The notes under the pieces are model-generated. The model was not told the DNA's origin and did no database searches. It saw only the letters and a program-made list of their open reading frames with translations. The position numbers and the translations under genes are program-made. Below are positions 3,840-41,175 of a stretch of DNA of 64,000 nt, in pieces. The DNA is taken from assembly GCF_008629695.1 (NCBI RefSeq), contig NZ_VWSH01000001.1, positions 399,990 to 463,989 of the forward strand. The letters run 5' to 3'. Origin of the DNA: Taibaiella lutea (GTDB lineage: Bacteria; Bacteroidota; Bacteroidia; Chitinophagales; Chitinophagaceae). Within the stretch, counting starts at the first letter, position 1; each line of letters opens with the position of its first letter.

Positions 3840-4343
3840 AATAAGTTCCAACTATTAAACAAATCTGTTACTATAATTAACTTATTTGGTAATCTAATTA
3901 ACTTATTTGTTACTATAATTAACTCATTTGTTAGTTTAATTAACTTATTTGGCAATTTAATTAATTTATTTGGTAATTAAATTAATCCACATGCCACTAT
4001 AATTCTCAAATAAGTTAATTTAATTCATCTTTATGAGAATAAAATTAACTCTGTTGACAATTAAATTTACATAAAAGTGAATTTAATTCACTTTTATGAG
4101 AATAAAATTAACTCCACTGACAATAAAATTTACATCTAAGTGAATTCATTTCATTTTTATGAGCATAAAACTATCTCTATTGACAATTAAGTTTACATTT
4201 AAGTGAATTAAATTCATTTATTTGGTAATTAATTTAACTTATTCGACAATTAATTTAACTTATTTAACAATTATACTTACAAATAAATGAATTTAATTCA
4301 TTTATTTGTTAATAATAGTATCAAAATACGTTCATTATTTGTC
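3840..4343. repeat. Array A: 24 degenerate units with exact 21-bp period
   Basis: Cutting the sequence every 21 bases from 3840 to 4343 gives 24 consecutive units with no insertion or deletion. Most follow a pattern such as TTATTTGGTAATnTAATTAA plus one base, with an AATT or TAATT core in the second half. There is a higher-order level: 4029-4091, 4092-4154 and 4155-4217 are three copies of a 63-bp block (first two about 84% alike by hand count). Some units are palindromic: 4280-4308 is a 29-bp odd palindrome with arms CAAATAAATGAATT. The minus strand of the left part reads open with a seven-residue period, which I take as a by-product of 21 = 3 x 7, not a gene. The array lies between the convergent recN and 4532-5560 genes. 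Confidence 0.9.
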
Positions 4344-4374
4344 AAAGGCTTGCTGCTTTCTTTCTACCAACCTA

Positions 4375-4426
4375 AAATGCCTGTGTGCCGTTCCTGTCAA
4401 CAGGAATAGGCATACAGGCATTTTTT
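4375..4426. terminator. Large bidirectional hairpin terminator
   Basis: Outer stem AAATGCCTGTGTGCC / GGCATACAGGCATTT and inner stem TTCCTGT / ACAGGAA form one long hairpin. It is followed by six T on the plus strand and four T on the minus strand. It lies about 105 bp beyond the stop of the minus-strand gene at 4532-5560 and separates it from the repeat array. Confidence 0.75.
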
Positions 4427-4531
4427 CAAATGAAATTGTGTTGAAGGGATAAGATAGAAGATTATAACATGGAGTGCAAACCCTGTTGTGTTAGTGATAA
4501 TTTCTCCCTGTCCCTCAATTATACAGTTGTC

Positions 4532-5560
4532 TTAGTTGTTAATTATCAAAGCCTCATGCTGCACGCCTTCATTACCATATATATTAATGCTGTAAGCACC
4601 GCTCATTAACATGGATGTAGGAATAAAAACATTATTGACACCCGTAGCATAATCTTTTCCCTTAATAGTTTGCACCACCCTGCCGCTCATGTCGGTAACA
4701 TTAATGCTTAAATAACTTGCCTTCGCTAAATCAAAAGATATATTAGCGCCATTTCTGCCTGCCGGATTGGGAAATAACTTAACTCCCTTAAGACCGGAAA
4801 TTTCAGCAATGCCGGTAGTTGGCAGAGATGCTTTTTTTGCATTAACTACTTTGTAGGTTGTTCCTTCCTTTTTATAGATAATAACATAAACTTCCAGTTT
4901 ATTCGCAACCCATCCCTGTGCAATATCCATTGTAAAAGCCTTTGTATATTCAGCATTGGCATTTACAGATCCATTCACCAAATTTTGTCCCCAGGGCGAC
5001 AAATCCGTATTCATCGACCCCCTTAAAATATGATGATGGCCTACCATTCCTGTTTGCCCGTTCTGAGTAGCCAATACGCTATCTTCAACCACATAAGCGG
5101 CTACATAATAATCGCCGGTAGTATTAGACCAGAATTTTGTTTTGGTATTTAAGGTAATCTTATTATTGGCGATAGTGTAAACACCTGCAGGACTTACAAC
5201 CGGGGCTGTTGTATATACAGGATTATACACATTTTGAACACTACTCAGAATAAACCCGCCGTCCGTATTATTCACCATAAAAGTAGGATACCCCGTTATC
5301 GGGAAATTACTTTCAAATGCATCGTAGCAATTTGCATCCATTGTTGCAGGCGTGCTGGAACCCATAACACCAATATAGTATCCTTTATCTCCTAAATCTC
5401 CGATAATATCTTCTGCTAATTCCCAGCCCCATTCACCACAAGGGCCGCACCATGTTTCTGTGAACTTGAAAACAACCGAACGGGATTTCATGTCCGGTAC
5501 CTGGGCAAAAAGTGTTGCTGACGCACTAACGCATAGTGCTGCAAGTAATAGCTTTTTCAT
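4532..5560 (-). CDS. Omp28-like secreted thioredoxin-fold protein with T9SS sorting domain
   Basis: 342 residues. A cleavable signal peptide (residues 1-20, ending ATLFAQ) is followed by a domain with the thioredoxin-type active site WCGPC (37-41) and the Omp28-related pattern (YPTFMVNN, HHHILRGS). The C-terminal ~85 residues, starting FPNPAGRNG, form a type A T9SS sorting domain ending GAYSINIYGN...IINN. The protein is therefore expected to cross the outer membrane through the Por machinery and be anchored or released at the surface. A CXXC redox motif on a T9SS cargo suggests thiol-disulfide chemistry outside the cell, but that is inference. Monocistronic by layout. Confidence 0.85.
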   Translation of the reverse strand: MKKLLLAALCVSASATLFAQVPDMKSRSVVFKFTETWCGPCGEWGWELAEDIIGDLGDKGYYIGVMGSSTPATMDANCYDAFESNFPITGYPTFMVNNTDGGFILSSVQNVYNPVYTTAPVVSPAGVYTIANNKITLNTKTKFWSNTTGDYYVAAYVVEDSVLATQNGQTGMVGHHHILRGSMNTDLSPWGQNLVNGSVNANAEYTKAFTMDIAQGWVANKLEVYVIIYKKEGTTYKVVNAKKASLPTTGIAEISGLKGVKLFPNPAGRNGANISFDLAKASYLSINVTDMSGRVVQTIKGKDYATGVNNVFIPTSMLMSGAYSINIYGNEGVQHEALIINN

Positions 5561-5723
5561 TTTTTCTTTGATTAAAATTGTGAGGCAATCATTTGGTCAA
5601 TGTAAATTTAAAAATTTAGAATACATTAACAAATATCAAGACACAACATATCCATGCGGTTATCAGCTATTTGTACACTATTGATAAGGAGAGGGTTCCT
5701 TTGAAACGGGGGGAAGATTACTG

Positions 5724-7664
5724 TTATCTGATGATTACAATCTTCATCAGTTCTTTTTCACGTTGCTTTAGCGCCTGGTGTGATTTTTGCAACATCATTA
5801 TTTTCTGAATGTCCTGCTCATGTTGCATCTGTTTCATGTTTTCATTCAGCAAACGGCGCAACAGCTTCAGTTCAAAGTAGGCAAAGGTGCTGTCTATTTC
5901 TTCAATATAGATTTGTTCGCCATGCAGCACTTCCACTTTATGCTTAATATGCCAGTTCTGGCTCGGCACATAATTGACATGTAATAAATCTGCCGTTTTC
6001 TGGCGTATTACTTTGTCAAGATGGCTTGTAAAGTGGCGATGGTCGGGTATTTGCTGTGTTTCATTCCACAGGTTATAATATTCCATAACCATGCGTTTTG
6101 CCAGCGGACTTTCAAGCAGCTCCAGATCTATGGTTTCAAAAAATATTTGAGCAACCGTTCCCTGCTCTTTATAATCTTTATTTCCGTACTCTAACAGAAT
6201 ACGCAATAATTGCCATTCTTCGTTGTATTCCTTCCGGCCAATCTCAACAATGATCGATTCACCGGTTTCTTCATCAAAATAAATTTCAGGTTCATCTTCC
6301 ACAGGTGCAGACTGTCCCTGCTTGCGCTCCTGTTGCCTCTGGTCCTGATTTAACCTGTCCCTGATGAATTTATTGACAAGATTGATCAGGCCGCTTTCAT
6401 CAATATCCAGTTGCCTTGCACTTTCCTTTATGTAATCGGCCTGAATGGAAAAATCTTCCGTTTTATTAATCTTCGAAATCGTTTCGGCAATTTCGTTTAC
6501 AAGATGCGATTTTTTCACAGGGTCATTCCCTATTTCCTTCAAACCCAGTCCCAGCCTGAACCTTATAACATCCTGCTTGTTTTCTTCAATAAATTTATTG
6601 AAAGCATCCGCTCCCTTTTTCTGAACAAAACTATCAGGATCTTCCCCGTCGGGAAGCAAAACAAGCTTCACATTAAAACTTTCAGACAAAGCCATATCCA
6701 AACCACGCATGGCAGCTTTAATACCTGCAGCATCGCCATCATAAAGAATGGTAAGGTTTTTGGTGAGATTACTAATAAGCTTTAATTGCCCTTCGGTAAG
6801 GGAAGTACCGCTGGAAGAAACGACATTGGTAACGCCGCCCTGGTGTAAAGAAATGACATCGGTATAGCCTTCAACCAAATAGCATTCATCCAGCTTACCA
6901 ATGCTTTGCCGCGACTGATAAAGACCGTAAAGCACTTTATTCTTTACGTACAATTCATTCTCGGGTGAATTGACATACTTAGGCGCATGTTCCGATTTTT
7001 TCAGGATACGTGCGCCAAAACCTAATATTCTTCCGGTATTGCTGAAGATGGGAAATATGACACGGCCTTTATAATTATCGTAAGCCCTGCCATCCCTGAC
7101 CTTTATCAGGCCCGCTTTTTCAAGCAATTCCTGTGTATGGCCTTTTGCCAAAGCCTCTGTAATAAATGCATCCCATTTATCCAGGCAATAACCCAATCTG
7201 AATTGCTCGATAATGTTGTTACGGAAACCACGTTCCTGAAAATAAGCGCCGCCAATCAATTGGCCTTCTTCATCATTGTGAAGGATATCTTCAAAATATT
7301 TAGCGGCAAATTCATTGACAATGCGAAGGCTTTCTTCAATCTGCTGTTGTTGCTTATATTCCTGCGGAGCCTCCGTTTCGTTAAGCTCTATCTGATAATA
7401 ATCTGCCAACCAGCGTATGGCTTCCACGAAAGAAAATTTCTCATATTCTTCCACAAAAGAAACTACATCACCACCCTTTCCGCAACCAAAACATTTATAA
7501 ATACCTTTGGAAGGATTGACATTAAAAGAAGGTGATTTTTCATTGTGAAAAGGACAATTGGCTATATAGCTTGCGCCACGTTTGCGCAGCTTCAAAAATT
7601 GTCCGATTACTTCTACTATATCGCTTCTGTTAATGACCTGTTGTATGGATTCCGGTGCTATCAT
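5724..7664 (-). CDS. dnaG: DNA primase
   Basis: 646 residues; makes RNA primers for replication. The N-terminal CHC2 zinc ribbon uses C37, H40, C58 and C61 (CPFH, then YKCFGCG). The TOPRIM core carries the catalytic glutamate in YLVEGYTDV (about 259-267), the SSSGTSLT loop and the DGD-type acidic motif LYDGDAAGIKA (about 306-316). The C-terminal part (from about 440, Q/E/R-rich linker) is the DnaB-helicase interaction domain, divergent as usual in this phylum. Start MIAPESIQQVINRSDIVEVI is canonical. No operon partner. Confidence 0.97.
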   Translation of the reverse strand: MIAPESIQQVINRSDIVEVIGQFLKLRKRGASYIANCPFHNEKSPSFNVNPSKGIYKCFGCGKGGDVVSFVEEYEKFSFVEAIRWLADYYQIELNETEAPQEYKQQQQIEESLRIVNEFAAKYFEDILHNDEEGQLIGGAYFQERGFRNNIIEQFRLGYCLDKWDAFITEALAKGHTQELLEKAGLIKVRDGRAYDNYKGRVIFPIFSNTGRILGFGARILKKSEHAPKYVNSPENELYVKNKVLYGLYQSRQSIGKLDECYLVEGYTDVISLHQGGVTNVVSSSGTSLTEGQLKLISNLTKNLTILYDGDAAGIKAAMRGLDMALSESFNVKLVLLPDGEDPDSFVQKKGADAFNKFIEENKQDVIRFRLGLGLKEIGNDPVKKSHLVNEIAETISKINKTEDFSIQADYIKESARQLDIDESGLINLVNKFIRDRLNQDQRQQERKQGQSAPVEDEPEIYFDEETGESIIVEIGRKEYNEEWQLLRILLEYGNKDYKEQGTVAQIFFETIDLELLESPLAKRMVMEYYNLWNETQQIPDHRHFTSHLDKVIRQKTADLLHVNYVPSQNWHIKHKVEVLHGEQIYIEEIDSTFAYFELKLLRRLLNENMKQMQHEQDIQKIMMLQKSHQALKQREKELMKIVIIR

Positions 7665-7869
7665 CTCGGTTGCGAAGTTAAATTAATTGTAGATAAACGT
7701 TGATGAAGGAACCGCACTATCTTAAAAAATATCAGCTATGGTTATAACACATTTATAATTAATAGCAATTACTCCACACATTATTCCAAAGTGTGCGAAT
7801 CATTATTCCAAAACAGCATAATTATTCATCTGACATTCATTGAAATCATGCGCGTGTTTTGTTTTTCGG

Positions 7870-7877
7870 TATTTTTG
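7870..7877 (+). promoter_or_regulatory. Possible -7 box for the 7908 gene
   Basis: TATTTTTG fits TAnnTTTG and lies 30 bp before the ATG of the following gene. The nearest TTG upstream is 27 bp away, outside the usual spacing, so only the -7 element is convincing. Confidence 0.35.
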
Positions 7878-7907
7878 AAACAGGATTACATCCAATTGTG
7901 AAATTTC

Positions 7908-9923
7908 ATGAGATATAAGATTCAACTGCGCCTGTTATTTTCATTACTGTTATTAGTCATCTATAGTGTTGCCGCAAGCGCTCAGATAATCCCTGTCAAC
8001 CATCCGCGCAATCCTCAAAAGCGTTATGAAATTGATGCAAAACGCACCGGAACAGATATTAACAGTAATGATGCCTTACCGCGGTCGAGAGAATTTTTGC
8101 GGATTGACAGCAGTTACTACATCGGGTGGATGTATGAAGGCATGTATAAAGTAAATCACGCCGCTGATTTTTTAGGTTATAAAAATGCCATCACGCCGCT
8201 GAAAAAAGCTATTTATCAGCTGGAACGCGATTATGCGCGTTTGTTAAGAATCCGTACATCAGACTTAATGACCTATTTTCCTGCTTACCGGTTTCACATG
8301 GATTATTCGGTTATAGCTTATAATCTGATGGAGTGCTATAACAATACCGATCAGCCGGAAGAAGCCATGAAGGTAATCCGCAGGACATTAAAATGGAATT
8401 TTGAGAATGAGGGATATATGCAGTCTTACGATTACCTTGCCTGGACAGTGCACCGCAATCGTTTTTATACTTCATCAAAGTATTCATTTCTAAAAGATAA
8501 CATTAATGAAAATGAAAAATTAGCGAATGCTTACCTGGATTCGGGCTTAAGGAAAATACATCTGGATAATGATTTGGTAAAGGGTTTCTTCCCTGGTTAC
8601 GAAGCGGCAGCCAGGCTTGGCGTCTATCATTATAAATCGCTTTTGTACAGTTATTCTTTAAAAATCGATTCTGCCAATAAATATTACAACTTACTAAAAG
8701 AAACGGCCGCATTTCCGCATAATAACTATGCTACTTTTCAGGCCATTCAGGGAAAATTCAGAACAGCCGAGAAAGAATATGAATTTGCCAGTATGCAGGA
8801 TGGAGCCGACAAACGCCTGCAGGAATGGGCTTATTACGGTTCTATAATAGACATTTATAAAGCACATCCGGAGCGGGCTACTGCCAGTATGAAAGACATG
8901 ATTAAGGCAGTCGGTTCCACGCCCGGTTTCGGATGGTACAATATAGCGCTGGCAAGGGCCTGCGCTTATAACGGCGACGAAAAGGAAAGCGAAAGATATA
9001 TCAATAAAGCAGAAGCATTCAAGGAAGTACATATAGGAACAACTTTGGGGCAAAGCCATTATGATTTCAGCATCAATATGGTGAAACTGATGAATAATAT
9101 TGAACGTATTCAACAAATAAAATTTGAAAACAAGGGCTGGTGGTATTCGCCCTCAAACCTTGCTGAGGTTGCAAAAGAGAATAGCCAGAAATATTTATTA
9201 CAATATTTAATCGTCAATCAATTTGCCAATAATCCCGAACGTGACCTGGTTATTTACAGGTTGTTTTCAACAGAAAGTACTGTAAGCTGGGATGAAATAT
9301 GGTTCCTGATGCGCGATTTCAGTACAAAATTTTTCATCTCAAAGTTTGAACAGCAGCTGAAGGATGACCAAAGGCCATTGGTAAAGAAGTATTTTAAACT
9401 GTTCATGGCAAAGCTGTATATGCAAAAGGGCAATTATACCGAAGCGCAAAAGCTTTTATATGACATTCTGAACAATGAAAAAACTGATATTGAATATGAG
9501 AAACTCTTTGCAGCCCGTGTGTATGAAGCTCTGGCATTGTGTGCCAAAGAGAAAGACAATGATCAGGAATACAACGAAAGCGTGAATTCTTTCTACATTA
9601 ATTTTCCGCAATTGCTTCCTTTCTCAGATGTAAAACCAAACCTGCGGTTGAGCATCATCGGAACGCCTGATGCAAAGGTGATAGAACGTCTGAAAGATTG
9701 TAATATCAACTGGATTACAAAAGGCGGCACCGACGCTCCGGAAGTAACTTTTCTTTTTGCCAATAACGGCAAAAAGAAAAGCGTTACTTATTACGTAATG
9801 GGCAATGGCGGCAGGGAATTGGTAAAGCGCAGTACTTATACTTACACCGATCCTGATGAAGCAGGGTTGACCCTGGCTTATAAACTGTTCAAAATTGAAA
9901 AGCCCGCAAAAGAGCATAAATAA
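7908..9923 (+). CDS. Secreted tetratricopeptide-like protein of unknown function
   Basis: 671 residues with an N-terminal signal peptide (residues 1-25, LLFSLLLLVIYSVAASAQ, cut after AQ). The rest is rich in paired amphipathic helices that read like degenerate TPR units, for example around AITPLKKAIYQLERDY (about 90), EEAMKVIRRTLKWNFE (about 155), RTAEKEYEFASMQ (about 290) and KLYMQKGNYTEAQKLLYDIL (about 505). The C-terminus (about 580-671) is more beta-like. I do not recognise a named family. The protein should be periplasmic or outer-membrane associated and may act as a scaffold. It stands alone on the plus strand. Confidence 0.75.
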   Translation: MRYKIQLRLLFSLLLLVIYSVAASAQIIPVNHPRNPQKRYEIDAKRTGTDINSNDALPRSREFLRIDSSYYIGWMYEGMYKVNHAADFLGYKNAITPLKKAIYQLERDYARLLRIRTSDLMTYFPAYRFHMDYSVIAYNLMECYNNTDQPEEAMKVIRRTLKWNFENEGYMQSYDYLAWTVHRNRFYTSSKYSFLKDNINENEKLANAYLDSGLRKIHLDNDLVKGFFPGYEAAARLGVYHYKSLLYSYSLKIDSANKYYNLLKETAAFPHNNYATFQAIQGKFRTAEKEYEFASMQDGADKRLQEWAYYGSIIDIYKAHPERATASMKDMIKAVGSTPGFGWYNIALARACAYNGDEKESERYINKAEAFKEVHIGTTLGQSHYDFSINMVKLMNNIERIQQIKFENKGWWYSPSNLAEVAKENSQKYLLQYLIVNQFANNPERDLVIYRLFSTESTVSWDEIWFLMRDFSTKFFISKFEQQLKDDQRPLVKKYFKLFMAKLYMQKGNYTEAQKLLYDILNNEKTDIEYEKLFAARVYEALALCAKEKDNDQEYNESVNSFYINFPQLLPFSDVKPNLRLSIIGTPDAKVIERLKDCNINWITKGGTDAPEVTFLFANNGKKKSVTYYVMGNGGRELVKRSTYTYTDPDEAGLTLAYKLFKIEKPAKEHK

Positions 9924-10059
9924 AGTTAATAACAAGTCAAATCCTGTATTATAATCAGCTGCCCGGCTTTCATAGCTTAGTTTTGCAATTATTTCCTTTC
10001 ATAAGGCTTGCTTTTAAGACTGCCAATCGGCAATTACTGCCGCCTAACCATTTTGCAAA

Positions 10060-11340: not shown

Positions 11341-11342
11341 TG

Positions 11343-16334: not shown

Positions 16335-18611
16335 TTATTTACATTTAACCTGCGCATCCATTACGGCCATAGCAACCATATTGCAAATCTGCCTTACAGA
16401 GCTTCCCAACTGAAGAATATGTACCGGCTTTTTCAGTCCCAGCAAAACAGGCCCGATAACTTCAAACCCGCCTACTTCCATCAATAGATTATAAGCAATA
16501 TTACCTGCTGCAAGATTCGGAAAAATCAAAGTGTTTACTTCTCCGTCTATCAGCGGTGAATTAGGATAGCTGTCTTTTAAAACTTCTTTATTAAAGGCCA
16601 GTGATGCCTGTATTTCGCCATCTACTATTAAACCTGGTTCTTTTTTCTTTACCATTTCATAAGCCTGCGCCACCATTCTTGCTTCGGGTGTGGTACTGCT
16701 TCCGAAATTGGAATAAGAAAGCATCGCTATTCTCGGTTCAATATTGAACTGGCGCACCTCTTTGGCTGTCAATAGTGTAATATCAGCCAGTTCTTCCGCA
16801 GTCGGATTCAGGTTGACTGTAGTGTCTGCCAGGAACAACGGACCCTGCGGACGTAAGATGATATACATACCCGCCACTTTCTTTACGCTTTCTTCCATGC
16901 CGATGATTTCCAGTGCAGGGCGAATAGTGTCGGGATAATTCCTTGTAAGGCCTGATATCAATGCATCAGCTTCTCCGGTTTCTACCATCATGCAACCGAA
17001 GTAATTTCTTTCACGCATGATTTTTTTAGCTTCATACATGTTGAAACCCTTGCGCTGTCTCTTTTCAAAAAACAATTCACCAAAACGGTTGCGTGTTTCC
17101 GTCATATCTTCACTTCTCGGATCAATGATGACGGCATCCTTCAAATCTATTTTATTATCTTTTAAAAGCTGGTTGATCTTGCGTTCATCACCTAAAAGAA
17201 TCGGATGTGCAATACCTTCATCCTTCACTATCTGTGCGGCTTTCAGCACTTTTACATTATCAGCTTCGGCAAATACAACTTTGCGTGGTTCTTTACGAGC
17301 TTTATTGTACAACACCCTTACAATATAATTATCCAGTCCAAGCCTTGCCTGCAATTCGTGGTCATACTTTTCCCAATCAGTAATAGGCTGACGGGCGACG
17401 CCACTTTCCATCGCGGCTTTGGCAACTGCAGGTGCAACAGTAGTCAGCAATCGTGGATCCAATGGTTTGGGAATGATATATTGCGGACCGAAAGAAAGAT
17501 TCTTTTCTCCGTAGGCCAACATAACCATATCAGGAACAGGCTCTTTGGCCATTGCAGCCAATGCCCTTACGGCAGCCATTTTCATGGCTTCGTTAATAGT
17601 AGTGGCACGAACATCCAAAGCGCCTCTGAAGATAAAGGGGAACCCGAGAACATTATTTACCTGATTAGGATAATCTGAACGGCCTGTTGCCATAATGACC
17701 TCCGGACGTGCAGCAATCGCGTCTTCCCAGGTAATTTCAGGATCAGGATTAGCCATCGCAAATACAATCGGTTTATCCGCCATGCTCTTGACCATATCGG
17801 CGTTTAACACACCTGCTTTGCTTAACCCGATAAACACATCAGCATTTACTAATGCTTCTTCCAAAGTATTTAATGGCGTATCAATAATAAATTCCTGCTT
17901 CATTTCATCAAGGCCGGAACGGGAAGTATTGATAATGCCTTTGCTATCGAGCATCAGTATATTGGCTTTGGAAGCGCCCAATTCAATATACAACTTTGCA
18001 CAGGCAATAGCTGCAGCGCCTGCACCATTCACCACTATCCTTACTTCTTCTATTTTCTTATCTACCAGCTCCAATGCATTTATCAATGCCGCAGCAGAGA
18101 TAATAGCCGTACCATGCTGATCGTCGTGCATCACCGGAATCTTCAATTCTGCTTTGAGCCTTTTTTCGATTTCAAAACATTCCGGCGCTTTGATATCTTC
18201 GAGGTTAATGCCGCCGAAAGTAGGCTCCAAAGCCTTTACAACAGTGATAAATTCCTCTACGCCTTTTGCATTCAGCTCGATGTCAAACACGTCGATGTCG
18301 GCAAATATTTTAAAAAGCACACCCTTTCCTTCCATTACAGGTTTCCCTGCCTCGGGTCCTATATCTCCCAGGCCCAAAACTGCGGTGCCATTGCTGATAA
18401 CTGCTACCAGGTTGCCTTTGGCTGTATATTTATAAACATCTTCAGGATTGTCTTTGATAGCTAAACATGGTTCTGCAACGCCAGGAGAATAGGCTAAGGA
18501 TAAATCACGCTGTGTTTTTGTATTTTTTGTAGGAACAACTTTTATTTTTCCCGGACGTCCCTGACTGTGGTAATCAAGTGCGTCTTGCTTATTAATCTTT
18601 CTGTTATTCAT
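16335..18611 (-). CDS. maeB: NADP-dependent malic enzyme with phosphotransacetylase-like C-terminal domain
   Basis: About 758 residues. The N-terminal half (1-430) is malic enzyme: [15 protein letters not shown] (malate site), [15 protein letters not shown], the metal-binding region [27 protein letters not shown], and a Rossmann segment [15 protein letters not shown] for NADP. The C-terminal half (430-758) is homologous to phosphate acetyltransferase ([15 protein letters not shown] to the final VMDAQVKCK) and usually acts as a regulatory or oligomerising domain sensing acetyl-CoA. An upstream TTG at 18618-18620 is in frame, but I prefer the ATG at 18611 ([15 protein letters not shown]). It converts malate to pyruvate with NADPH. 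A TAAATTTG box overlaps 18618-18625. Confidence 0.95.
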
Positions 18612-28357: not shown

Positions 28358-28711
28358 CTACTCCTCAATCTCTTTCTTCAAAACATCCGAAATATCATTC
28401 AATTTCTTGTAAGGCACCTTCGACATCATTTTTCTGAAATTCTTTTCCTTGTCACCCGTATGCAGTAACGGCCGCAGCGGATGATCCGCCGGTACTTTGG
28501 TAACGTCTGCCGGTTCCCACAGCAACAAATCATGAGGTTCGCACCAAAGCAAAGTACACAGCCGTTCCAGATATTTAAAATTGATACCTTGCTGTTTACC
28601 TGCAATCAACAGGTTAGCAATATTATGTGTAAACCCGTTATGTGTCAAAAAGTAATAGGGCCGTTCTATGCCCCTTGCAGTAAATACGGGATCCAGATTT
28701 AGTCTTATCAT
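28358..28711 (-). CDS. XRE-type helix-turn-helix protein
   Basis: 117 residues. The N-terminal ~65 residues have the Cro/CI pattern: MIRLNLDPVFTARGI at the start, NGFTHNIANLLIAG (turn and recognition helix), NFKYLERLCTLLWCEPHDLL (helices 4-5). The C-terminal half is charged and likely helical (PYKKLNDISDVLKKEIEE). It may be a small repressor. Array B (28803-29117) begins about 90 bp upstream of its start, so the array could lie in its control region. Confidence 0.85.
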   Translation of the reverse strand: MIRLNLDPVFTARGIERPYYFLTHNGFTHNIANLLIAGKQQGINFKYLERLCTLLWCEPHDLLLWEPADVTKVPADHPLRPLLHTGDKEKNFRKMMSKVPYKKLNDISDVLKKEIEE

Positions 28712-28802
28712 ATCCTGATTTTAAATTTATTAAGACGATACTGATATACTATCAAAAATCATTCCAATTTTGGAGGAATGTGGCTATAATTTTAAAAATC
28801 CC

Positions 28803-29117
28803 GTTTATTTGGCAAATACTGAGTTTAATAATTCAACTTTCCATTCATTTATGCAAACTTTTATTTCATTTATATAAACTTCTTTTTCATTTATTTAAAC
28901 CTCCATTGCCATTATTTTATCTTACGTTTCAATTATTAAAACTTTTTTCTTCGTTTTTTAAACCTGTAATTCTATTTATTAAACTTAAAATTTCATTATT
29001 GAAACTTTATTCTTCATTATTAAAACCTCCTTTTTAATTATGGAATCTTCTGTTTCAATTATTTTAACCCCCGACCTGATTATTCAAAAACCACTCCCGA
29101 TTATTCGTAATCCGCGT
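28803..29117. repeat. Array B: 15 degenerate units with exact 21-bp period
   Basis: Fifteen consecutive 21-base windows from 28803 keep the same register without insertion. Typical units are TCATTTATATAAACTTCTTT plus one base, or TTCATTATTAAAACCTCCTT plus one base. The most constant part is TTAAACCT / TTAAACTT in the middle, with a TTCATTT head. A plus-strand open frame over the array shows a seven-residue period (L/H-F-K pattern), a by-product of the length. The array runs from the 5' side of the XRE gene to just before the terminator of the RsmF-like gene. The last three or four units are more GC-rich and weaker. Confidence 0.88.
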
Positions 29118-29222: not shown

Positions 29223-30620
29223 CTACCTCAGCTCCATCCTTATCCTCCAGTTCTTCGGAAAATAGTTATTCATCCTGTTGGGCAGCCATTTTCCCCAACC
29301 CAGACCTAATCCTTCATAAGTCAGCAATTGCCAGCCTTTCACCGGATTGTCTTTCAGTACTTCTTCTTTCTTTAAAAACAACAAAGCCGTTTCCTTATCG
29401 GCCGCTACCCTTTTCACATCTCCCGACAGATGAATGCTCAACGCCAGTTCATGATCAGGTATGATGTCCTTACCTGCGATTTTTCCTAATGCAGTACCTG
29501 TTTTCTTTATCCTTAATAAAGGTTGCAGCAATTCATAGTCCTTTTTATGCGCGGCATGTATGCCATACCATTCTTCATTCTTTTCTATCAATGCAAAATC
29601 ATTGTTCAGCCAGGCTTTCCAACGTTGTGTTTCATCTTTCGCCTTAGGATTGCCGCCTTTCTGCTGCTGTTTCTTTTGTTTACGTGCAGGTTCTTCCTGT
29701 TCTGCGGCCTCTTTCTTTCTGAAAGCAGCCAGAAAGAAACCTTCCCCATTCAGTTGCCAGGGGTAAAAACGGTAACCGGCCGCATGGTGTTTTTCTGAAA
29801 CGGTTTCGGTTATGTTCCATGCTGTTTCTACAGGAATTTTCAATGATTCCATGCCCATGTTTTCACAAATCCAGTCGCATACCATTTCATTTTCTTCGGC
29901 GGAATAAGAACAGGTAGCGTATAACAATACGCCGTCCTGTTTCAATGCAGGCAAGGCGTCGGCTAATATTCTTTTCTGCCTTTCGCTGCAAAGCTTTACA
30001 TGATCCCGCGACCATTCGTCAAGCGCATCTGCATCTTTGCGCCATAAACCGGAACCGGTACAAGGCGCGTCTATCAGCATTACATCAAAATATTCCGGCA
30101 GTTTTGCAAAATCCTTCGGGTCGTTATTACTGACCCAGGTATTCATTTGTCCCCAGCGGGTAAGGTTTTCGGCCAATACGGATGCACGCGTTTGTATCAC
30201 TTCGTTGGATATCAGTAAATCTTCCTCATGAAGCAAGGAAGCCAGCAAGGTGCTTTTCCCTCCCGGCGCAGCACAAAGATCCAATACGCGCAAAGGCACT
30301 TCGCCACGCTGAACGGTATTTTTAAAAGCATGTTCCACAAACATCGATGAAGCTTCCTGCACATAATAAGCACCGGCATGGAACAATGGATCTAATGTAA
30401 ATACAGGCCGTTCTGTAAGATAAACTCCGTAACTACTCCAGGGTACTGCCGGTAATTCTGGCTGGGAAAAATTAAGCTTGCAGGGATTATATCGTATGGA
30501 AGTAAGCGGAACCTGCTGATGCGCTGCTATAACAGCTGCTTCCGGAAGATGTCCCAATCCCGGCACAGCACTTATCTGTGGTATAATAGCCGATAACTTT
30601 GCCAATGCTGCTTGTTCCAT
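29223..30620 (-). CDS. rRNA cytosine-C5 methyltransferase, RsmF / NOL1-NOP2-Sun family
   Basis: 465 residues. SAM-binding motif LDLCAAPGGKSTLL (about 112-125), motif with the releasing Cys DAPCTGSG (about 183-190), and the second catalytic Cys in LYATCSYSAEENE (about 231-243). A Q/K-rich linker (about 310-335) leads to the RsmF-type C-terminal domain (about 350-465, LALSIHLSGDVKRVAADKE). It uses two cysteines to transfer a methyl group to a cytosine in rRNA. E. coli RsmF acts on 16S C1407; whether the same base is the target here is not known. Confidence 0.9.
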   Translation of the reverse strand: MEQAALAKLSAIIPQISAVPGLGHLPEAAVIAAHQQVPLTSIRYNPCKLNFSQPELPAVPWSSYGVYLTERPVFTLDPLFHAGAYYVQEASSMFVEHAFKNTVQRGEVPLRVLDLCAAPGGKSTLLASLLHEEDLLISNEVIQTRASVLAENLTRWGQMNTWVSNNDPKDFAKLPEYFDVMLIDAPCTGSGLWRKDADALDEWSRDHVKLCSERQKRILADALPALKQDGVLLYATCSYSAEENEMVCDWICENMGMESLKIPVETAWNITETVSEKHHAAGYRFYPWQLNGEGFFLAAFRKKEAAEQEEPARKQKKQQQKGGNPKAKDETQRWKAWLNNDFALIEKNEEWYGIHAAHKKDYELLQPLLRIKKTGTALGKIAGKDIIPDHELALSIHLSGDVKRVAADKETALLFLKKEEVLKDNPVKGWQLLTYEGLGLGWGKWLPNRMNNYFPKNWRIRMELR

Positions 30621-32688: not shown

Positions 32689-32733
32689 AGATTAAATAAA
32701 AAGTAAAAATTTAAAAGTAAAAATCCGGAGTTT

Positions 32734-33310: not shown

Positions 33311-33353
33311 TATTATTCCTGTAAATTTTAAACCGTGCAAAGCTACAATCTAT

Positions 33354-33361
33354 TATCTTTG
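33354..33361 (+). promoter_or_regulatory. Possible -7 box of oxyR
   Basis: TATCTTTG fits TAnnTTTG and lies 24 bp before the ATG at 33386. No TTTG lies at the expected -33 position; the TTTT at 33326-33329 is the closest. Confidence 0.4.
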
Positions 33362-33385
33362 TTTCCACGAAAAAATCAAGATATT

Positions 33386-34342: not shown

Positions 34343-34349
34343 TAATTCT

Positions 34350-34383
34350 AATCGTTTGGTGTAAAAGCCAAACGATTTTTTTG
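34350..34383 (+). terminator. Terminator of oxyR
   Basis: AATCGTTTGG / CCAAACGATT perfect 10-bp stem, eight-base loop, followed by TTTTTTG. Begins 7 bp after the oxyR stop codon. Confidence 0.9.
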
Positions 34384-34421
34384 TTTTATTAATAAATCCT
34401 TTAATTACCTGACAATACATA

Positions 34422-34958: not shown

Positions 34959-34970
34959 TGACGACATAGA

Positions 34971-35420
34971 ATGGATAATATTCAACTATATATTGACAGC
35001 GGGAATGTTTTAAGACTGCAATTTCATGATGCCGTTCACCCCGAATTAGTTCCTATAAAAGCAGACCATTGGAATGCCATTTATAAAATTTATCACCATC
35101 AAACTTTGTTTGATCACGGGCTTTTTAGCAATAACTATTTTATTTGCAAACAACGAAAGCTTTTAATAATTGAAGAATATAACAGAACAATTTTGGATAA
35201 GGATAGTATTAAAACAGATGATGATGTAATTAAGAATTTAAGACTGTTTGATTTTAAAAGCAATAAAACCTGCAGGTTCTCTAAATTAACCGGTGGTTCG
35301 TTTTTATTGCAAAAATTTGTTGACAATAACTTTATATTTAGCAAGCAATATTCCGGTAAAATTTCAGAATTTGAAATTGATATAACAAGTACAATTCTTG
35401 TTGACTTCGGTAAACTTTAA
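34971..35420 (+). CDS. Hypothetical protein downstream of the GNAT gene
   Basis: 149 residues, no signal and no membrane segment. The sequence opens MDNIQLYIDSGNVLRLQFHD and alternates short beta segments with a lysine- and aspartate-rich middle (YNRTILDKDSIKTDDDVIKN), ending ITSTILVDFGKL. It follows the GNAT gene by 12 bp, so it is probably cotranscribed. I do not recognise a family. Confidence 0.6.
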   Translation: MDNIQLYIDSGNVLRLQFHDAVHPELVPIKADHWNAIYKIYHHQTLFDHGLFSNNYFICKQRKLLIIEEYNRTILDKDSIKTDDDVIKNLRLFDFKSNKTCRFSKLTGGSFLLQKFVDNNFIFSKQYSGKISEFEIDITSTILVDFGKL

Positions 35421-35497
35421 TTACATGAGATTTTAACCGGACAATAAATCCATTTCCACATTTTATGAAACACTATAGCGCAAAAAACAATAAAACC

Positions 35498-35526
35498 TTT
35501 GCTCGCATTTAGTTTTTGTACCTTTG
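35498..35526 (+). promoter_or_regulatory. Bacteroidota-type promoter of the DEAD-box helicase gene
   Basis: TTTG at 35498-35501 and TACCTTTG at 35519-35526 form a -33/-7 pair with 17 bp between. The -7 box matches TAnnTTTG in full. It lies 59 bp upstream of the start codon. Confidence 0.65.
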
Positions 35527-35585
35527 ACCACAATAAAACAGGTTGCAATAAAGCAATCCTTATTAAAAACAATATTTAGTTTACA

Positions 35586-36848
35586 TTGATATTCGACGAT
35601 TTTAATTTAGATGATGATGTGTTAGATGGCATTCATGCCATGGGTTACAAAACACCGACTCCTATTCAGGAACAAGCTATTCCGCTTATTTTAGAAAATA
35701 AAGATTTGATTGCCTGTGCACAAACCGGCACGGGAAAGACGGCCGCATTCATGCTGCCTTTGTTGCATAAAATCATGAACATGCCTGCAGACGGCATCAA
35801 TACGCTTATTCTGGTTCCTACACGCGAACTGGCTATTCAGATAGACCAACAGGTGGAAGCTATGGGTTATTACCTGAATGTAAAATCCATTGCGGTTTAT
35901 GGCGGCGGCAGCGGCCATAGCTGGGTGCAGCAAAAACAGGCTCTTACCAAAGGAACAGATATCATTATTGCAACGCCGGGAAGATTGATAGCTCAAATGC
36001 AGATGGGTGGCATGGATTTTTCGCATATAAAACACCTTGTGCTGGATGAGGCCGATCGCATGCTGGACATGGGTTTTTATGACGATATCATTAAAATAGT
36101 AACCGCCCTTCCAAAAGACAGGCAGACATTGTGTTTCAGCGCCACTATGCCACCCCGCATACGTAAGCTGACAGCACAGATACAGAATAAACCCGAGGAA
36201 ATCACTATTGCTATATCCAAACCTGCAGCAGGTATCAGGCAATTGATATATTTAGCGCATAATGAACAGAAGCATAAACTTGTACTTGAAATTTTAAAGA
36301 CGGGCAATTATAAATCTGTTATTATTTTTTCTTCAAGCAAGGAGAATGTAAAGCGGCTGGAAGGCGAATTACGCCGTTCCAAAATCAATGCCAAAGCCTT
36401 TCACTCCGATTTGGTTCAAGAAGAAAGAGAAGCTTTGATGCTTGATTTCAAGAATCAGAAAATCAATGTGCTTGTAGGGACGGATGTCTTGTCAAGAGGT
36501 ATTCATGTAGAAGGTATTGATCTGGTATTGAATTATGATGTCCCACCCGACCCTGAAGACTATGTGCATCGCATCGGTCGTACTGCCAGAGCGGAAAACA
36601 CGGGAACGGCCATTACTTTTGTGAATGAAAAAGACATGCGCCGTTTTTCTGCTATTGAGAAATTAATTGAACGCCAACTGGAGCAGGTGCCTTTGCCGGA
36701 AGGTTTTGGAGAAGGCCCTGTTTATAAAGTCATTAGTTCGGGCGGACATAAGCATCATCCTACCAATAAGAATAAGTTTAAAGGTAAGAAGCCCGGCAAT
36801 CATCAGAACAAAACACATATCCACAAGAAGGGAGATGCTCCCAAATAA
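35586..36848 (+). CDS. DEAD-box ATP-dependent RNA helicase
   Basis: 420 residues. Starts with TTG (35586-35588); I keep this because F-x-x-F-N-L then GYKTPTPIQEQAIP is the usual N-terminus. All motifs are present: Q motif (PTPIQEQ), I AQTGTGKT, Ia PTRELAIQ, II VLDEADRMLDMGF, III SAT, IV-VI through HRIGRTARAENTG. The C-terminal ~35 residues are basic (GHKHHPTNKNKFKGKKPGN), as in RNA-binding tails of cold-adapted RhlE/CsdA-like helicases. It remodels RNA duplexes or ribosome intermediates. A long leader separates promoter and start. Confidence 0.92.
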   Translation: MIFDDFNLDDDVLDGIHAMGYKTPTPIQEQAIPLILENKDLIACAQTGTGKTAAFMLPLLHKIMNMPADGINTLILVPTRELAIQIDQQVEAMGYYLNVKSIAVYGGGSGHSWVQQKQALTKGTDIIIATPGRLIAQMQMGGMDFSHIKHLVLDEADRMLDMGFYDDIIKIVTALPKDRQTLCFSATMPPRIRKLTAQIQNKPEEITIAISKPAAGIRQLIYLAHNEQKHKLVLEILKTGNYKSVIIFSSSKENVKRLEGELRRSKINAKAFHSDLVQEEREALMLDFKNQKINVLVGTDVLSRGIHVEGIDLVLNYDVPPDPEDYVHRIGRTARAENTGTAITFVNEKDMRRFSAIEKLIERQLEQVPLPEGFGEGPVYKVISSGGHKHHPTNKNKFKGKKPGNHQNKTHIHKKGDAPK

Positions 36849-36880
36849 AAATTCCGCTCCTATCGAGCGGAATTTTGTTT
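36848..36880. terminator. Bidirectional terminator after the helicase gene
   Basis: AAAATTCCGCTC / GAGCGGAATTTT stem with a CTATC loop. It overlaps the last base of the helicase stop region and also suits the convergent universal stress gene, whose stop is 40 bp away. Confidence 0.85.
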
Positions 36881-36919
36881 AAAAGATTTTCTCCAATCTC
36901 AAAAATCTATTTCATCGGA

Positions 36920-37741
36920 TCACTCCTTTAGTGTAACAATTGGAAGATTGTTTATCCGTGTCAATCTTTTGGTATGCCTTTGATTGAATATGCTGTACCA
37001 CATGCCATGCGTACGTGGAATGACAAGCAATAACTGAATGTCGTGTTCCCTTACGTAATTTATAATGGTGGCGACTACATCTGAATTTTCAATAGATACA
37101 TAAATCGGAGTGTATTCGGCAAGGTCCTGTTCCAGTTGTTGTTTGTGCAACAGCCTTTGATGTTCGTTCTTTTTATTGGGGATGTTGACGTGAATAATAT
37201 GCAATTGTATATTTTCATTCTGCATCAGGTTCTTTATAAAATCCAGTTGTGAAGATGTCAGCGGACTGAAATAATCACAGGCGAAACCCATATTTGTTAT
37301 AGCCGTATAAGAAACGGTTTTGGGTATAATTAAGGCAGGAATAGGAATCAGATGGAGAATATCTATAAAACTATCGTTCCAACCCCAGAATTCACCCTGG
37401 CTTTCAGGTGCGCCTGTAATCAAAAACTCCGGGCTGTATTCTTCCATCAGGTCCTTTATTGCATTTTCCTTTGTGCCGTAAGTCAGCCGATGTATAATGG
37501 AGATTTCAGGATAATTATCTGTAGCCCATTTCTTTTCTGCAACAAGTTTTTCTTCTGTGTTCTGTATGTTTTCTTCAATGCTTCCAAATGCCAGTGCATC
37601 GGCAGCATAATTAAGCGGCGCATCAAAATTGTGGATAAGGACAATTGCGTAATTTCTTTCGGAGCATAATGCACATGCGTATTGCAATGCATTTCTTGAA
37701 GTGTCTGTAAAGGCGGTATAAACTAATATTTCAGATTTCAT
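36920..37741 (-). CDS. Tandem-domain universal stress protein
   Basis: 273 residues made of two Usp (adenine-nucleotide alpha-hydrolase fold) halves. Half 1 (1-~140): EILVYTAFTDTSRNALQYACAL, ending in TGAPESQGEFWGWNDS, the region of the ATP loop. Half 2 (~140-273): TNMGFACDYFSPLTSSQLDFIKNL, LLLVIPRTHGMWYS. The G-2x-G-9x-G ATP-binding motif is only partly kept, so nucleotide binding is uncertain. Bacteroidota often carry several such double Usps. Nothing in the neighbourhood points to a particular stress. Confidence 0.82.
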   Translation of the reverse strand: MKSEILVYTAFTDTSRNALQYACALCSERNYAIVLIHNFDAPLNYAADALAFGSIEENIQNTEEKLVAEKKWATDNYPEISIIHRLTYGTKENAIKDLMEEYSPEFLITGAPESQGEFWGWNDSFIDILHLIPIPALIIPKTVSYTAITNMGFACDYFSPLTSSQLDFIKNLMQNENIQLHIIHVNIPNKKNEHQRLLHKQQLEQDLAEYTPIYVSIENSDVVATIINYVREHDIQLLLVIPRTHGMWYSIFNQRHTKRLTRINNLPIVTLKE

Positions 37742-37894
37742 TTCAAAATGGTTTTAGAAATATTCGGAGATGGGTATTATCAAAAAGGCTTTATTAAAAA
37801 CGCCTGATTGTCTCTTACAAATTTACCACTTTTTTACCTCATTACGACATGGATATAAGTCAATTAATGCCTCTGTGTTATCTGTCTTACACAA

Positions 37895-37925
37895 AGAAAG
37901 CCGGGCTGTAAAAGCCCGGCTTTCT
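37895..37925 (-). terminator. Hairpin after the RN-rich secreted protein gene
   Basis: AGAAAGCCGGGCT / AGCCCGGCTTTCT perfect 13-bp stem with a five-base loop. On the minus strand it lies 19 bp beyond the stop of the 37944-38477 gene and is followed by TTTG. Confidence 0.8.
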
Positions 37926-37943
37926 GTTACCATTTACCCATTC

Positions 37944-38477
37944 TTAGTGTCTTCCGTGTCCGCGACCATGATCATCACGGTCATTTCTGTTGTTCCAATC
38001 GTTTCTGTTATTTCTGTCTCCTCTGTTATTATCATGTCTGTCATTATTCGCATATCCATTGTGGTTGCCGTTATTGCCTCTGCCATAATTCCTGTAGTTA
38101 TTCCAGTCTCTGTTCATTGGCTGACTGTATACATTGCGGTATCTGCCGTACATGGCAATGTCGTTCCTGTTTTGCATAAATGGATTTGGACGGTTGACCA
38201 CTACTTTATAAGATCTGTACAAATCAAAGTTGCGGTATCTCGGAGGTAATTGCGCGCCATAAATCCAACGGTTGCCATTCATATAAACATATTGATTGCG
38301 CATGACGTCGTAATAAACGTTTATAGATGGGATGTAATAAAAGTCTGCATGATTATAGCCGCTTGGTCCCCATGCAGGTTGGTTTCCTATATTGATACTT
38401 ACACTTAACTGAGCATTTGCTTGTTGGCTGAAAGCCAGGCCTGTAAATAAAAACAGGGCGATCATTACTTTTTTCAT
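37944..38477 (-). CDS. Secreted Asn/Arg/Asp-rich protein
   Basis: 177 residues. Signal peptide 1-22 (FLFTGLAFSQQANA). Residues 25-100 have an ordered look with many aromatics (DFYYIPSINVYYDVMRNQYVYMN). The last ~75 residues are low-complexity, rich in N, R, D, G and Y, ending DDHGRGHGRH. His/Asp clusters could bind metal or polyanions. Similar exported proteins with a Y-rich head and basic tail are frequent in this phylum without known function. Confidence 0.7.
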   Translation of the reverse strand: MKKVMIALFLFTGLAFSQQANAQLSVSINIGNQPAWGPSGYNHADFYYIPSINVYYDVMRNQYVYMNGNRWIYGAQLPPRYRNFDLYRSYKVVVNRPNPFMQNRNDIAMYGRYRNVYSQPMNRDWNNYRNYGRGNNGNHNGYANNDRHDNNRGDRNNRNDWNNRNDRDDHGRGHGRH

Positions 38478-38849
38478 CTGTCTAAAAATTTAAGATTAAT
38501 AATCCAGGATTCTCTTTTCCCTTTTGCTGATACTATGACTGAACACTTGTTCATTAGTTTACACGAAGGCTGAAAATCTGCTGCCGTTATCAATTCATTA
38601 GGAAATGGATTAGTCGTATATTTTTGAGTTGCCGGACATCTTTGAGATGTACGACAACTCAAAAATTGATGATGGATTAAAACCCCGAAGCTTTTGAATT
38701 TATGTCAGTCAAATTAAAAAATACTGCAAAACATTCACGAAGCATGTGAATTATAAGGCAAAAAATGCCAATTTGGCAACTATAATGAGTTTGGAATAAC
38801 CTTTGTTCATTAGTAAGAGATAGTTCAAACATTAAAACTCAGAAACCTT
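38478..38849. other. Intergenic region between the RN-rich protein gene and htpG
   Basis: 372 bp between divergent genes. It contains a 45-base hairpin at 38621-38665 with outer stem TTTTTGAGTTG / CAACTCAAAAA and inner stem ACATCT / AGATGT. The position (not downstream of any gene) argues against a simple terminator. A TTTG at 38772-38775 and a near -7 TAACCTTTG at about 38796 (one base longer than the TAnnTTTG consensus) may be the htpG promoter. No CIRCE element was found. Confidence 0.55.
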
Positions 38850-40745
38850 ATGCAAGAAAAAGGAAATATATCCATACACACGGAAAACATCTTTCCGATT
38901 ATTAAAAAGTTTTTATACTCCGACCACGAAATTTTCCTTCGTGAACTGGTTTCCAATGCTGTTGATGCCACTCAAAAGGTGAAACGCCTTTCTTCTCTGG
39001 GTGAATTTAAAGGAGAATTGGGTGATTTAATGGTAGAAGTTTCTTTCGATAAAGAAAAGAAGACTTTAACCATCAGCGACCACGGTATCGGTATGACTGC
39101 TGAAGAAATCAAGAAGTACATCAACCAGGTAGCTTTTTCAGGAGCAACTGAGTTCATGGAAAAATTCAAGGAAGCAAAAGATGCCAATGAAATCATAGGT
39201 AAGTTTGGTTTGGGCTTCTATTCTGCGTTCATGGTTGCCCATAAAGTAGAACTGAATACATTGTCTTATCAGGAAGGTGCGCAACCTGCACGCTGGACTT
39301 GCGACGGCAGTACGGAATTCGAAATTACGGACGGCGACCGTACAACAAGAGGTACTGATATTATCCTGCATATCAATGAGGATTCAGAAGAATTTTTAGA
39401 TGAACACAAATTGCGTGGCATCCTGGATAAATATTGCCGTTTCCTTCCTGTGCCTATTAAATTCGGCACGAAGACAGAAAGAGAGCCTGACGGAGAAGAT
39501 GAAGAAGGAAAACCAAAATACAAAGAGATTACGGTTGACGATATCATCAACAACACAACGCCTATCTGGACGAAATCGCCGTCTGAACTGACAGATGAAG
39601 ATTATCTTAACTTCTACCGCGAACTATATCCGATGAGCGAAGAGCCGTTGTTCTGGATTCATCTGAATGTGGATTATCCGTTTAATCTGACGGGCGTATT
39701 GTATTTCCCGAAAGTTAAAAATGAGTTTGAAATACAACGCAATAAAATCAAATTGTTCAGCCGTCAGGTATTTATTACAGATGAGGTAAAAGACATCGTT
39801 CCTGAATTCCTGATGTTATTGCATGGTGTGATTGACAGTCCTGATATTCCGCTAAACGTTTCCCGCAGCTTCCTGCAGGCCGATGGCAATGTGAAGAAAA
39901 TCAACAATTACATTACGAAAAAAGTAGGCGACAAATTAAGCGAATTATTCAAAGCTGACAGAAAGGCTTATGAAGAGAAATGGCCTGATATCGGTTTGTT
40001 TGTGAAATACGGTATGATTACCGAAGAGAAATTTCACGACAAAGCAAAGGATTTTGTCTTGCTGCCAAATGTAAAAAAGGAATATTTCACTTTGAATGAG
40101 TATAAAGACAAGGTAGGCGAATTGCAGACGGATAAAGACGGGAACGTTATTTATCTGTACAGCAACGACGCAGCGAAGCAACATACTTTTATTGCAGCCG
40201 CTGAACGTAAGGATTATGATGTTCTGGAAATGAATCATCCGATTGATACACACTTTATTGCCCAGCTGGAACAGAAACTGGAAAAGACGCAATTAAAACG
40301 CGTGGATGCCGATATTATAGATAACCTGATTCCGAAGGAAATTACGGTTGAAAGTGTATTAAGCGAGGACCAAAGCAAAGAGGTGAAGGAATTGTTTGAA
40401 AAGGCCATCAACAAAACTACCATGAATGTAGATGTGATTGGTCTGAATCCGGAAGAGTTACCGGTAACTGTTACCATGGACGAGTTTATGCGCCGTATGA
40501 AAGATATGGCTAAAACCGGCGGTGGCGGTATGATGAGCTTTTACGGCAATCTTCCTGATAATTATAAAGTATCTGTAAATGGCAACCATAAACTGATTCG
40601 CAGAATGCTGGAAGAAAGCGATGCTGCTAAAAAGGAAAGCCTTGCGCGTCAGGCATTTGACCTTGCATTGTTATCTCAGGGAATGCTTACGGGCGCTGAT
40701 TTAACGGACTTTGTAAACAGAAGCGTTGATTTGATAGGAGCTTAA
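38850..40745 (+). CDS. htpG: Molecular chaperone HtpG (Hsp90)
   Basis: 631 residues. N-terminal GHKL ATPase: ELVSNAVDAT (the E/N Mg-ATP residues), DHGIGMT, and GKFGLGFYSAFMVA. The middle domain follows with the FDLFE-type region replaced by NKIKLFSRQVFI and the catalytic Arg loop in GVIDSPDIPLNVSRSFLQ. The C-terminal dimerisation part runs to the end and has no MEEVD tail, as expected in bacteria. Acts as a general ATP-dependent chaperone in the cytoplasm. Monocistronic, with its own terminator. Confidence 0.97.
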   Translation: MQEKGNISIHTENIFPIIKKFLYSDHEIFLRELVSNAVDATQKVKRLSSLGEFKGELGDLMVEVSFDKEKKTLTISDHGIGMTAEEIKKYINQVAFSGATEFMEKFKEAKDANEIIGKFGLGFYSAFMVAHKVELNTLSYQEGAQPARWTCDGSTEFEITDGDRTTRGTDIILHINEDSEEFLDEHKLRGILDKYCRFLPVPIKFGTKTEREPDGEDEEGKPKYKEITVDDIINNTTPIWTKSPSELTDEDYLNFYRELYPMSEEPLFWIHLNVDYPFNLTGVLYFPKVKNEFEIQRNKIKLFSRQVFITDEVKDIVPEFLMLLHGVIDSPDIPLNVSRSFLQADGNVKKINNYITKKVGDKLSELFKADRKAYEEKWPDIGLFVKYGMITEEKFHDKAKDFVLLPNVKKEYFTLNEYKDKVGELQTDKDGNVIYLYSNDAAKQHTFIAAAERKDYDVLEMNHPIDTHFIAQLEQKLEKTQLKRVDADIIDNLIPKEITVESVLSEDQSKEVKELFEKAINKTTMNVDVIGLNPEELPVTVTMDEFMRRMKDMAKTGGGGMMSFYGNLPDNYKVSVNGNHKLIRRMLEESDAAKKESLARQAFDLALLSQGMLTGADLTDFVNRSVDLIGA

Positions 40746-40765
40746 TACTGTAATTTAATACAGAC

Positions 40766-40803
40766 AATTGCCGGTGGGATTATGCTCTCACCGGCAATTT
40801 TTT
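40766..40803 (+). terminator. Terminator of htpG
   Basis: AATTGCCGGTG / CACCGGCAATT 11-bp stem followed by TTTT on the plus strand, 21 bp after the htpG stop. Confidence 0.9.
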
Positions 40804-40860
40804 ATTGAAATGTAAAGCTTGAGGTAGTATTGTTTCGGTACGTTTCATTATAATTTTTGA

Positions 40861-41175
40861 ATAATTGAGCTAAAACCGGAAGCATTGTCAGCCGACGAGG
40901 GAAGCATAGCGGTATGAAGCGGAAACATAAAGCCTGAAAGGCAAGACAAAGCATCCGGAAAGCGGAACACAAACAACAAATACCTGTACAAAACAGGTAA
41001 GACGCATACAAACAGACATTAGAGACAAACAAAGCGCTCCGGCTTAAAAGCATAACGGTTAATTTTGAATACAAACAGACCGGAGCCTGAAACATTGTCA
41101 GCTGAAACGAAAACATACTGTTTGAAAAGCAGTACATACTACCTGAAAAGCGATACAAAGTGCGGAAATCAGAAA
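40861..41175. repeat. Array C: 15 degenerate units with 21-bp period
   Basis: Fifteen 21-base windows in constant register between the htpG terminator and the RHS gene. Well-matching units include 41092, 41113 and 41134 (ACATACTGTTTGAAAAGCAG plus one base, ACATACTACCTGAAAAGCGA plus one base), 41071 and 41008 (ACAAACAG start) and 41029 (ACAAAGCGC). A typical pattern is ACAnAC...CCTGAAAAGC. GC content is higher than in arrays A and B. The minus strand reads open through it with a seven-residue period (M/L/C at the first position of each heptad). Flanking windows at 40840 and 41176 are weaker. Confidence 0.85.

Follow-up and report, generated by a model that had tools for sequence, protein, structure and literature searches.

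Intergenic 21-bp tandem arrays of Taibaiella lutea share a period across mostly unrelated unit sequences

What can hold the period of a tandem repeat constant while its sequence is left free to change? This question is raised by a window of 64,000 nucleotides from the genome of Taibaiella lutea (4.27 Mb, 5 contigs), in which a sequence-only reading had described three non-coding arrays, A, B and C, as each keeping one exact 21-base register with unrelated unit words, and had suggested that the period rather than the sequence is conserved.

Three 21-bp arrays in the window

Array A (3849..4345 with its conserved ends) is composed of about 22 AT-rich units of 21 bp and sits in the gap of convergent RecN-like and Omp28-like genes, the RecN-like gene on its left (2036..3694, + strand) encoding a 552-aa protein of the SMC_N/AAA family. 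Array B (28829..29069; about 11 AT-rich units of 21 bp) occupies the gap between a small HTH gene on its left flank (28358-28711) and an RsmF-like 16S rRNA methyltransferase gene on its right (rsmF, 29223-30620, − strand). Array C (40861..41182) displays a degenerate 21-bp periodicity, the clear part of which is 41027-41182, and separates the Hsp90 gene htpG on its left (38850..40745, + strand), whose best named match is that of Taibaiella chishuiensis (82% identical), from the gene directly after it, which encodes a DUF6443 protein of 1,558 aa (41503-46179) that we take to be Rhs/YD-like.

Each of the three arrays has autocorrelation peaks at lags 21, 42 and 63, with lag-21 identities of 0.60 for A, 0.62 for B and 0.43 for C. 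Over the whole intergenic segments the combined 21/42/63 score reached 18.7, 14.0 and 4.85, respectively. The null was built from 500 dinucleotide shuffles per segment, retaining the best score at any lag from 8 to 45, and no shuffle out of 500 attained the observed score of its array (maxima 3.90 for A, 3.54 for B and 4.36 for C). The lag-21 peak is consequently far beyond the shuffled control in A and B and weakly beyond it in C, the weakest of the three, whose score is close to its shuffle maximum.

Profile extension bounded A at 3858-4315, which is its core, B at 28835-29069 and C at only 41027-41168; A was stretched to about 3849-4345 by homology with a paralogous element, and it also has a higher-order period of 63. 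Tandem Repeats Finder (TRF) delimits 4.5 copies in C (41090-41182) with 19 mismatches and 3 indel events. The single register of 315 bp attributed to C was thus an overstatement, its clear part being shorter and broken by indels. In agreement with unrelated unit words, none of the pairs A-B, A-C and B-C appears among the 16 pairs listed as most similar by consensus. Altogether, the observation of 21-bp arrays in the window is confirmed.

The window also contains, at 1884-1970, a 23-bp unit, TTGAAACCTATAAGGTTTAGGAG, in 3.8 copies that each hold a dyad, with divergent genes on either side, and, at 57539-59110, 6.8 copies of a 231-bp repeat (92% match) within an ORF of 1,441 aa (56087-60412, − strand) whose product is a large repeat protein.

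Occurrence and period of the arrays in the genome and its relatives

The window and a further 762.5 kb of the T. lutea genome (826.5 kb altogether) were searched with TRF for non-coding arrays with a minimum length of 90 bp and a minimum of 3 copies. The search retrieved 23 non-coding tandem arrays, 14 of them with a period of exactly 21, so that the genome-wide class surmised from the window does exist; the other nine have periods of 7, 8, 16, 18, 20, 22, 23, 41 and 42, once each. Six of the sampled stretches had been chosen for their match to array A; without these six and the window, 6 period-21 arrays occur in 642.5 kb, from which about 40 would be extrapolated for the whole genome. Arrays with more than half of their length inside ORFs of 150 aa or longer were excluded from the TRF tables, which removed the arrays of L093 and L097 and those of L098 around 17000-18000; the arrays of L093 and L097 go uncounted solely because open frames cross them.

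About ten unit families can be distinguished in T. lutea. The A-type family is dispersed, being present in the window and at loci L094 and L105 and, reversed, at L102 and L106. The L089 and L092 units have 20 of 21 consensus letters in common, those of L101 and L178 have 19 of 21, and the L104 unit recurs at a second place on contig 3; B, C, L093, L095, L097 and L176 represent families with a single member. Some of these families may share an ancestor, because 8 of 75 consensus pairs across different families reach p<0.05. Words are kept within a family and not between families, and no word or dyad common to all arrays was found; GC content ranges from 14 to 56%. The genes around 16 arrays are oriented −+ (6 cases), −− (4), +− (3) or ++ (3), without clear bias. 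Related non-coding stretches also recur in one 20-kb piece of the genome (L178, 12375-19714), where ordinary indels are many.

The distribution among relatives is patchy. No 21-bp array was detected by TRF in 386.6 kb from three congeners, where 3.6 would be expected by scaling from the T. lutea rate (Poisson probability of zero 0.027), nor in 562.6 kb from 19 other genomes of the family or order, the genome G022 apart (5.3 expected by the same scaling, P 0.005), and another 83.4 kb, taken from five genomes, contained no non-coding array. A lag scan gave a lag-21 signal in the congener stretch L142, which TRF resolves into heptamers with a 14-bp unit. In 753.6 kb around htpG (80 named loci), two weak 21-bp arrays were present (scores 76 and 56). 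Furthermore, a 63-bp array (TRF) with a lag-21 peak lies upstream in the htpG locus of Pedobacter petrophilus (L078, 1311-1516) and may represent the class beyond the family.

G022, which belongs to the same family and to another genus, is richer in such arrays than T. lutea: 477 kb contain 26 arrays, including 11 of period 21, ten of 41-43 and one of 61. Unit consensus pairs between the two genomes reach p<0.05 in 1 of 104 cases. In one G022 locus (L238, 11304-11429), six identical 21-bp units end a contig; long young arrays may break assemblies in this manner, so that array counts may be low. The sequence-only reading had made its proposal dependent on the arrays not being absent from all relatives. 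They are absent from the sampled congeners, but this absence does not extend to the family, because G022 is rich in 21/42-bp arrays.

The idea that the arrays keep syntenic positions while their units drift finds no support. Indeed, no periodic array was found at the orthologous rsmF sites of the three congeners (G001, G002 and G003), none outside coding DNA at their orthologous recN sites, and no lag-21 array at the htpG site of T. chishuiensis (L009), where the next ORF follows after about 84 bp. With the best candidates per genome scored, array A has no long counterpart among 58 relatives, four of which match it over 28-45 bases (E about 1e-4), and, scored likewise, the L104 unit has no match in 146 other genomes of the family.

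With a TRF score of at least 100, T. lutea and G022 together contain 36 non-coding arrays, 21 with period 21, 12 with periods of 41-43, one with 61 and two with 7, while the eight arrays of the other sampled genomes have periods of 7, 7, 14, 40, 62, 63, 73 and 79. Spacing in whole helical turns, as in iterons, is found here, lengths of 21 and 41-43 bp predominating. Among the five period-42 arrays examined, L218 is a clear dimer of 21 (z 9.7 at shift 21), L215 (z 3.0) and L214 (z 2.2) lean to such a dimer, and L249 and L186 are unclear. Six 41-bp arrays showed no half-unit repeat, and the 61-bp array peaks at shift 20-21 and, by eye, divides into 20+21+20. On these readings the period quantum corresponds to roughly two turns of the helix, holding exactly for 21 and more loosely for the multiples; the 41-bp arrays and the 20+21+20 array speak against an exact 10.5 rule, 41 bp making up four turns only if a turn takes 10.25 bp. 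The period is exactly 41, not 42, at L098 (17123-17460), L185 (11065-11286), L214 (16901-17178) and L250 (15700-15932), which belong to T. lutea and G022.

As 21 and 42 are multiples of 7, the arrays could instead belong to a class generated by heptamer slippage, as in repeats of cyanobacteria, Beggiatoaceae and some Bacteroidetes. Heptamer arrays are present in T. lutea (L095, 13951-14114, TAGTGAA), with other words in congeners (L142, 853-958; L148, 1-303; L152), and in others, one of them being made of 43 copies at the start of a contig. According to PMC4679880, the long simple repeats of most genomes are most often heptamers, a preference for which a proposal cited there holds polymerase contact length responsible. 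The heptanucleotide direct repeats (TAACTGA) described in PMC4679880 resemble our arrays in being intergenic, patchy over phyla including Bacteroidetes and of one favoured unit length, but they keep one word and thus conserve sequence, whereas here the length is conserved, the sequence diverges and there is no 7-bp subperiod. Indeed, no lag-7 signal exists within the 21-bp units (mean lag-7 column correlation −0.08 over 18 arrays), and no 28- or 35-bp array occurs in the T. lutea or G022 sample, yet 41, 43 and 61 do. Heptamer slippage is an improbable origin.

Coding potential, curvature and RNA structure

Since 21 bp equal seven codons, the arrays might be coding heptad repeats or their remnants. 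At least one frame is open in 10 of 21 arrays, and in the window an 85-aa ORF (28780-29037, + strand) covers most of array B and a 118-aa ORF (40802-41158, − strand) most of array C. However, no frame spans the whole of A, B or C, several frames are open simultaneously in six arrays (three in L093, four in L097), a Pfam search with the 85-aa and 118-aa ORFs matched no family, and 41 bp is not a multiple of 3. Column variability had no codon phase in the 21 arrays (smallest p 0.2), and the pairing of one open frame with codon-phase variation that marks a repeat-protein gene was not seen. A coding origin is exceedingly unlikely, and the description of A, B and C as non-coding stands, apart from the partial ORFs in B and C.

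Phased intrinsic bends, which would make the arrays curved-DNA elements, had been put forward as one explanation of the period. Any two-turn repeat sums its bends coherently, and predicted curvature, obtained with wedge parameters, exceeds that of full shuffles in 18 of 21 arrays. However, the predicted curvature of the 21 arrays does not exceed that of versions whose columns were permuted at unchanged period (mean z 0.23), and the 10.5-bp AA/TT harmonic has a mean rank of 4.5 of 10 against 5.5 expected, so that neither a harmonic nor a curvature beyond the matched control points to phased A-tract DNA. This suggestion is accordingly not upheld, and bends are a very unlikely cause. According to PMC3940949, the A-tract periodicity of about 10.5 bp, which is tied to DNA curvature, conserves phase. 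Our arrays have in common with it a helical-turn period, but they differ by tandem two-turn units, a GC content of up to 56% and the lack of curvature beyond the period's own.

The arrays could also encode a structured RNA with one hairpin per unit. Dyads are visible by eye in some units, and RNA folds of A and C are more stable than column-permuted controls on the + strand (z −3.6 and −4.0), as are those of L094 and one G022 array on one strand; C also has a z of −2.2 on the − strand, and most arrays are unlike C. Against this, mean fold z over 21 arrays is −0.5 and −0.7, no within-unit covariation was detected (126 tests on each array gave best z values of 2-3), and an Rfam search of the window returned no match, which leaves this explanation highly unlikely. 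The hairpins or dyads that are striking by eye in the units of A, C and L104 were rejected as a feature, within-unit pairing being no greater than between-unit pairing, and a strand skew was judged to be explained by the few independent columns per unit.

Reverse transcriptase (PF00078) was found in none of five genomes, T. lutea and G022 included, and this does not point to products of reverse transcription. The printed units are continuous and degenerate, without the spacers of a CRISPR. HU-family genes number 3-4 in genomes with and without arrays.

Register, drift and spacing

The register was assessed by counting indels against substitutions. Mismatches to the unit consensus and indel events were counted in 24 TRF-bounded 21-bp arrays (13 of T. 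lutea, 11 of G022), with an ORF cover limit of 60%, a TRF score of at least 70 and a 21-letter consensus, criteria by which L089 was left out; L098 and L185 were dropped from the 21-bp statistics. There are 1,102 mismatches for 17 indel events (ratio 0.015), mismatches common to higher-order repeats and to the five A-type paralogues being counted more than once. Ordinary non-coding DNA of named Bacteroidota loci has 1,345 mismatches for 184 gap openings (ratio 0.137) in 49 non-overlapping pairwise BLAST alignments of 70-95% identity, the aligner thus differing from that of the array count. Relative to mismatches, indels are about nine times less frequent in the arrays (Fisher p 4e-28). A count of 1,372 mismatches for 4 indels was discarded in favour of the TRF-bounded one, as bounds extended in register bias it.

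Simulated arrays with a true indel ratio of 0 were detected in 82 of 90 cases (11 events per 4,531 mismatches), those with a ratio of 0.03 in 80 of 90 (143 per 3,988) and those with 0.1 in 77 of 90 (302 per 3,585). As indel-bearing arrays are still detected, the search would have picked up most real arrays that carry indels. These results support the view that the register resists indels while the sequence drifts. Unit families that are mostly unrelated have the period in common, a hint that the spacing counts for more than the unit sequence.

Ten tandem arrays of other periods served as controls. In the six with a period of at least 24, 193 mismatches and 17 indels were counted, but 15 of these indels come from two adjacent arrays of the congener locus L143 and one more from L078, whose 63-bp unit itself peaks at lag 21; the Fisher p of 2.5e-6 against these six was set aside because it rests on the two L143 arrays, and ordinary DNA was used as the control instead. 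Without the L143 arrays and L078 the count is 120 to 1, indistinguishable from that of the 21-bp arrays (Fisher p 1.0), so that few indels may be a property of tandem arrays in general. The other four, of period 7 or 14 and kept outside the Fisher test, have 63 mismatches and 1 indel. Indels are likely kept out of the 21-bp arrays, and both possibilities, a feature special to 21 bp and one general to tandem arrays, have to be considered.

Comparison of paralogues adds to this picture. A and L094 are 79% identical over 455 bases with gaps solely of 21, 21, −21 and −21, and their copy content differs by whole units. The other nine of the ten A-type pairs have other gap sizes too, of which many, though not every one, fall at the ends of the elements. 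Real indels do occur, with two one-base insertions in L106 and two indels in L176. In most arrays the identity of two units does not fall the further apart they lie; in C it does.

We tentatively prefer, at somewhat less than an even chance, the reading that these arrays are intergenic satellites specific to their lineage, in which a spacing of two turns is upheld, probably so that a protein can bind them on one face. A unit would be amplified in a burst and the units would then drift independently by substitution, which would suit the flat identity with distance in most arrays. Indels that shift the frame would be removed by selection, because 21 bp correspond to two helical turns and a reader would have to meet each unit on the same face of the DNA. 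Such a reader would most likely be an oligomerising DNA-binding or nucleoid protein, requiring helical phase and only loose sequence.

About as likely is the alternative that the arrays are neutral minisatellites, in which duplication or slippage prefers about 21 bp, units are gained and lost in 21s, and the tandem context lets few indels survive, with no reader at all. They do consist of head-to-tail units in non-coding DNA. Their patchy, lineage-specific occurrence, the lack of syntenic conservation at congener sites and the lack of a clear orientation bias around 16 arrays are consistent with this alternative, as is the indel-poor state of the other-period arrays apart from L143 and L078; the 8 of 75 between-family pairs at p<0.05 indicate, in addition, that the shared period may be partly due to descent. 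Against it stand an indel ratio about nine times under that of ordinary Bacteroidota non-coding DNA and below that of the 0.03 simulations, and the occurrence of one period in two genera with unrelated units. Bacterial intergenic minisatellites, or VNTRs, resemble the arrays in being tandem, non-coding, lineage-specific and homogenised in higher-order repeats; they differ from the many loci seen here, with mostly unrelated units of one period and with so few indels per mismatch.

A wider form of the spacing reading, less probable than the first, would be that the arrays are dispersed satellites in which selection holds the helical phase (21, 41-43 or 61-63 bp) and leaves the unit sequence to drift and be replaced, forming a platform for a protein that reads phase and is loose about sequence, a bacterial analogue of satellite chromatin. 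Iterons and other direct-repeat protein-binding arrays likewise present direct repeats at whole-helical-turn spacing, but the present arrays occur at many loci and no binding word is conserved across their families. In searches of the open-access full-text literature, no listed title or abstract dealt with sequence-free 21-bp arrays.

If the spacing reading is true, selection on helical spacing with free sequence would constitute functional non-coding DNA that is invisible to methods based on sequence similarity. The indel-to-substitution ratio in tandem arrays would provide a simple genome-scale test for selection on spacing, and the two-turn quantum would allow a direct biochemical test.
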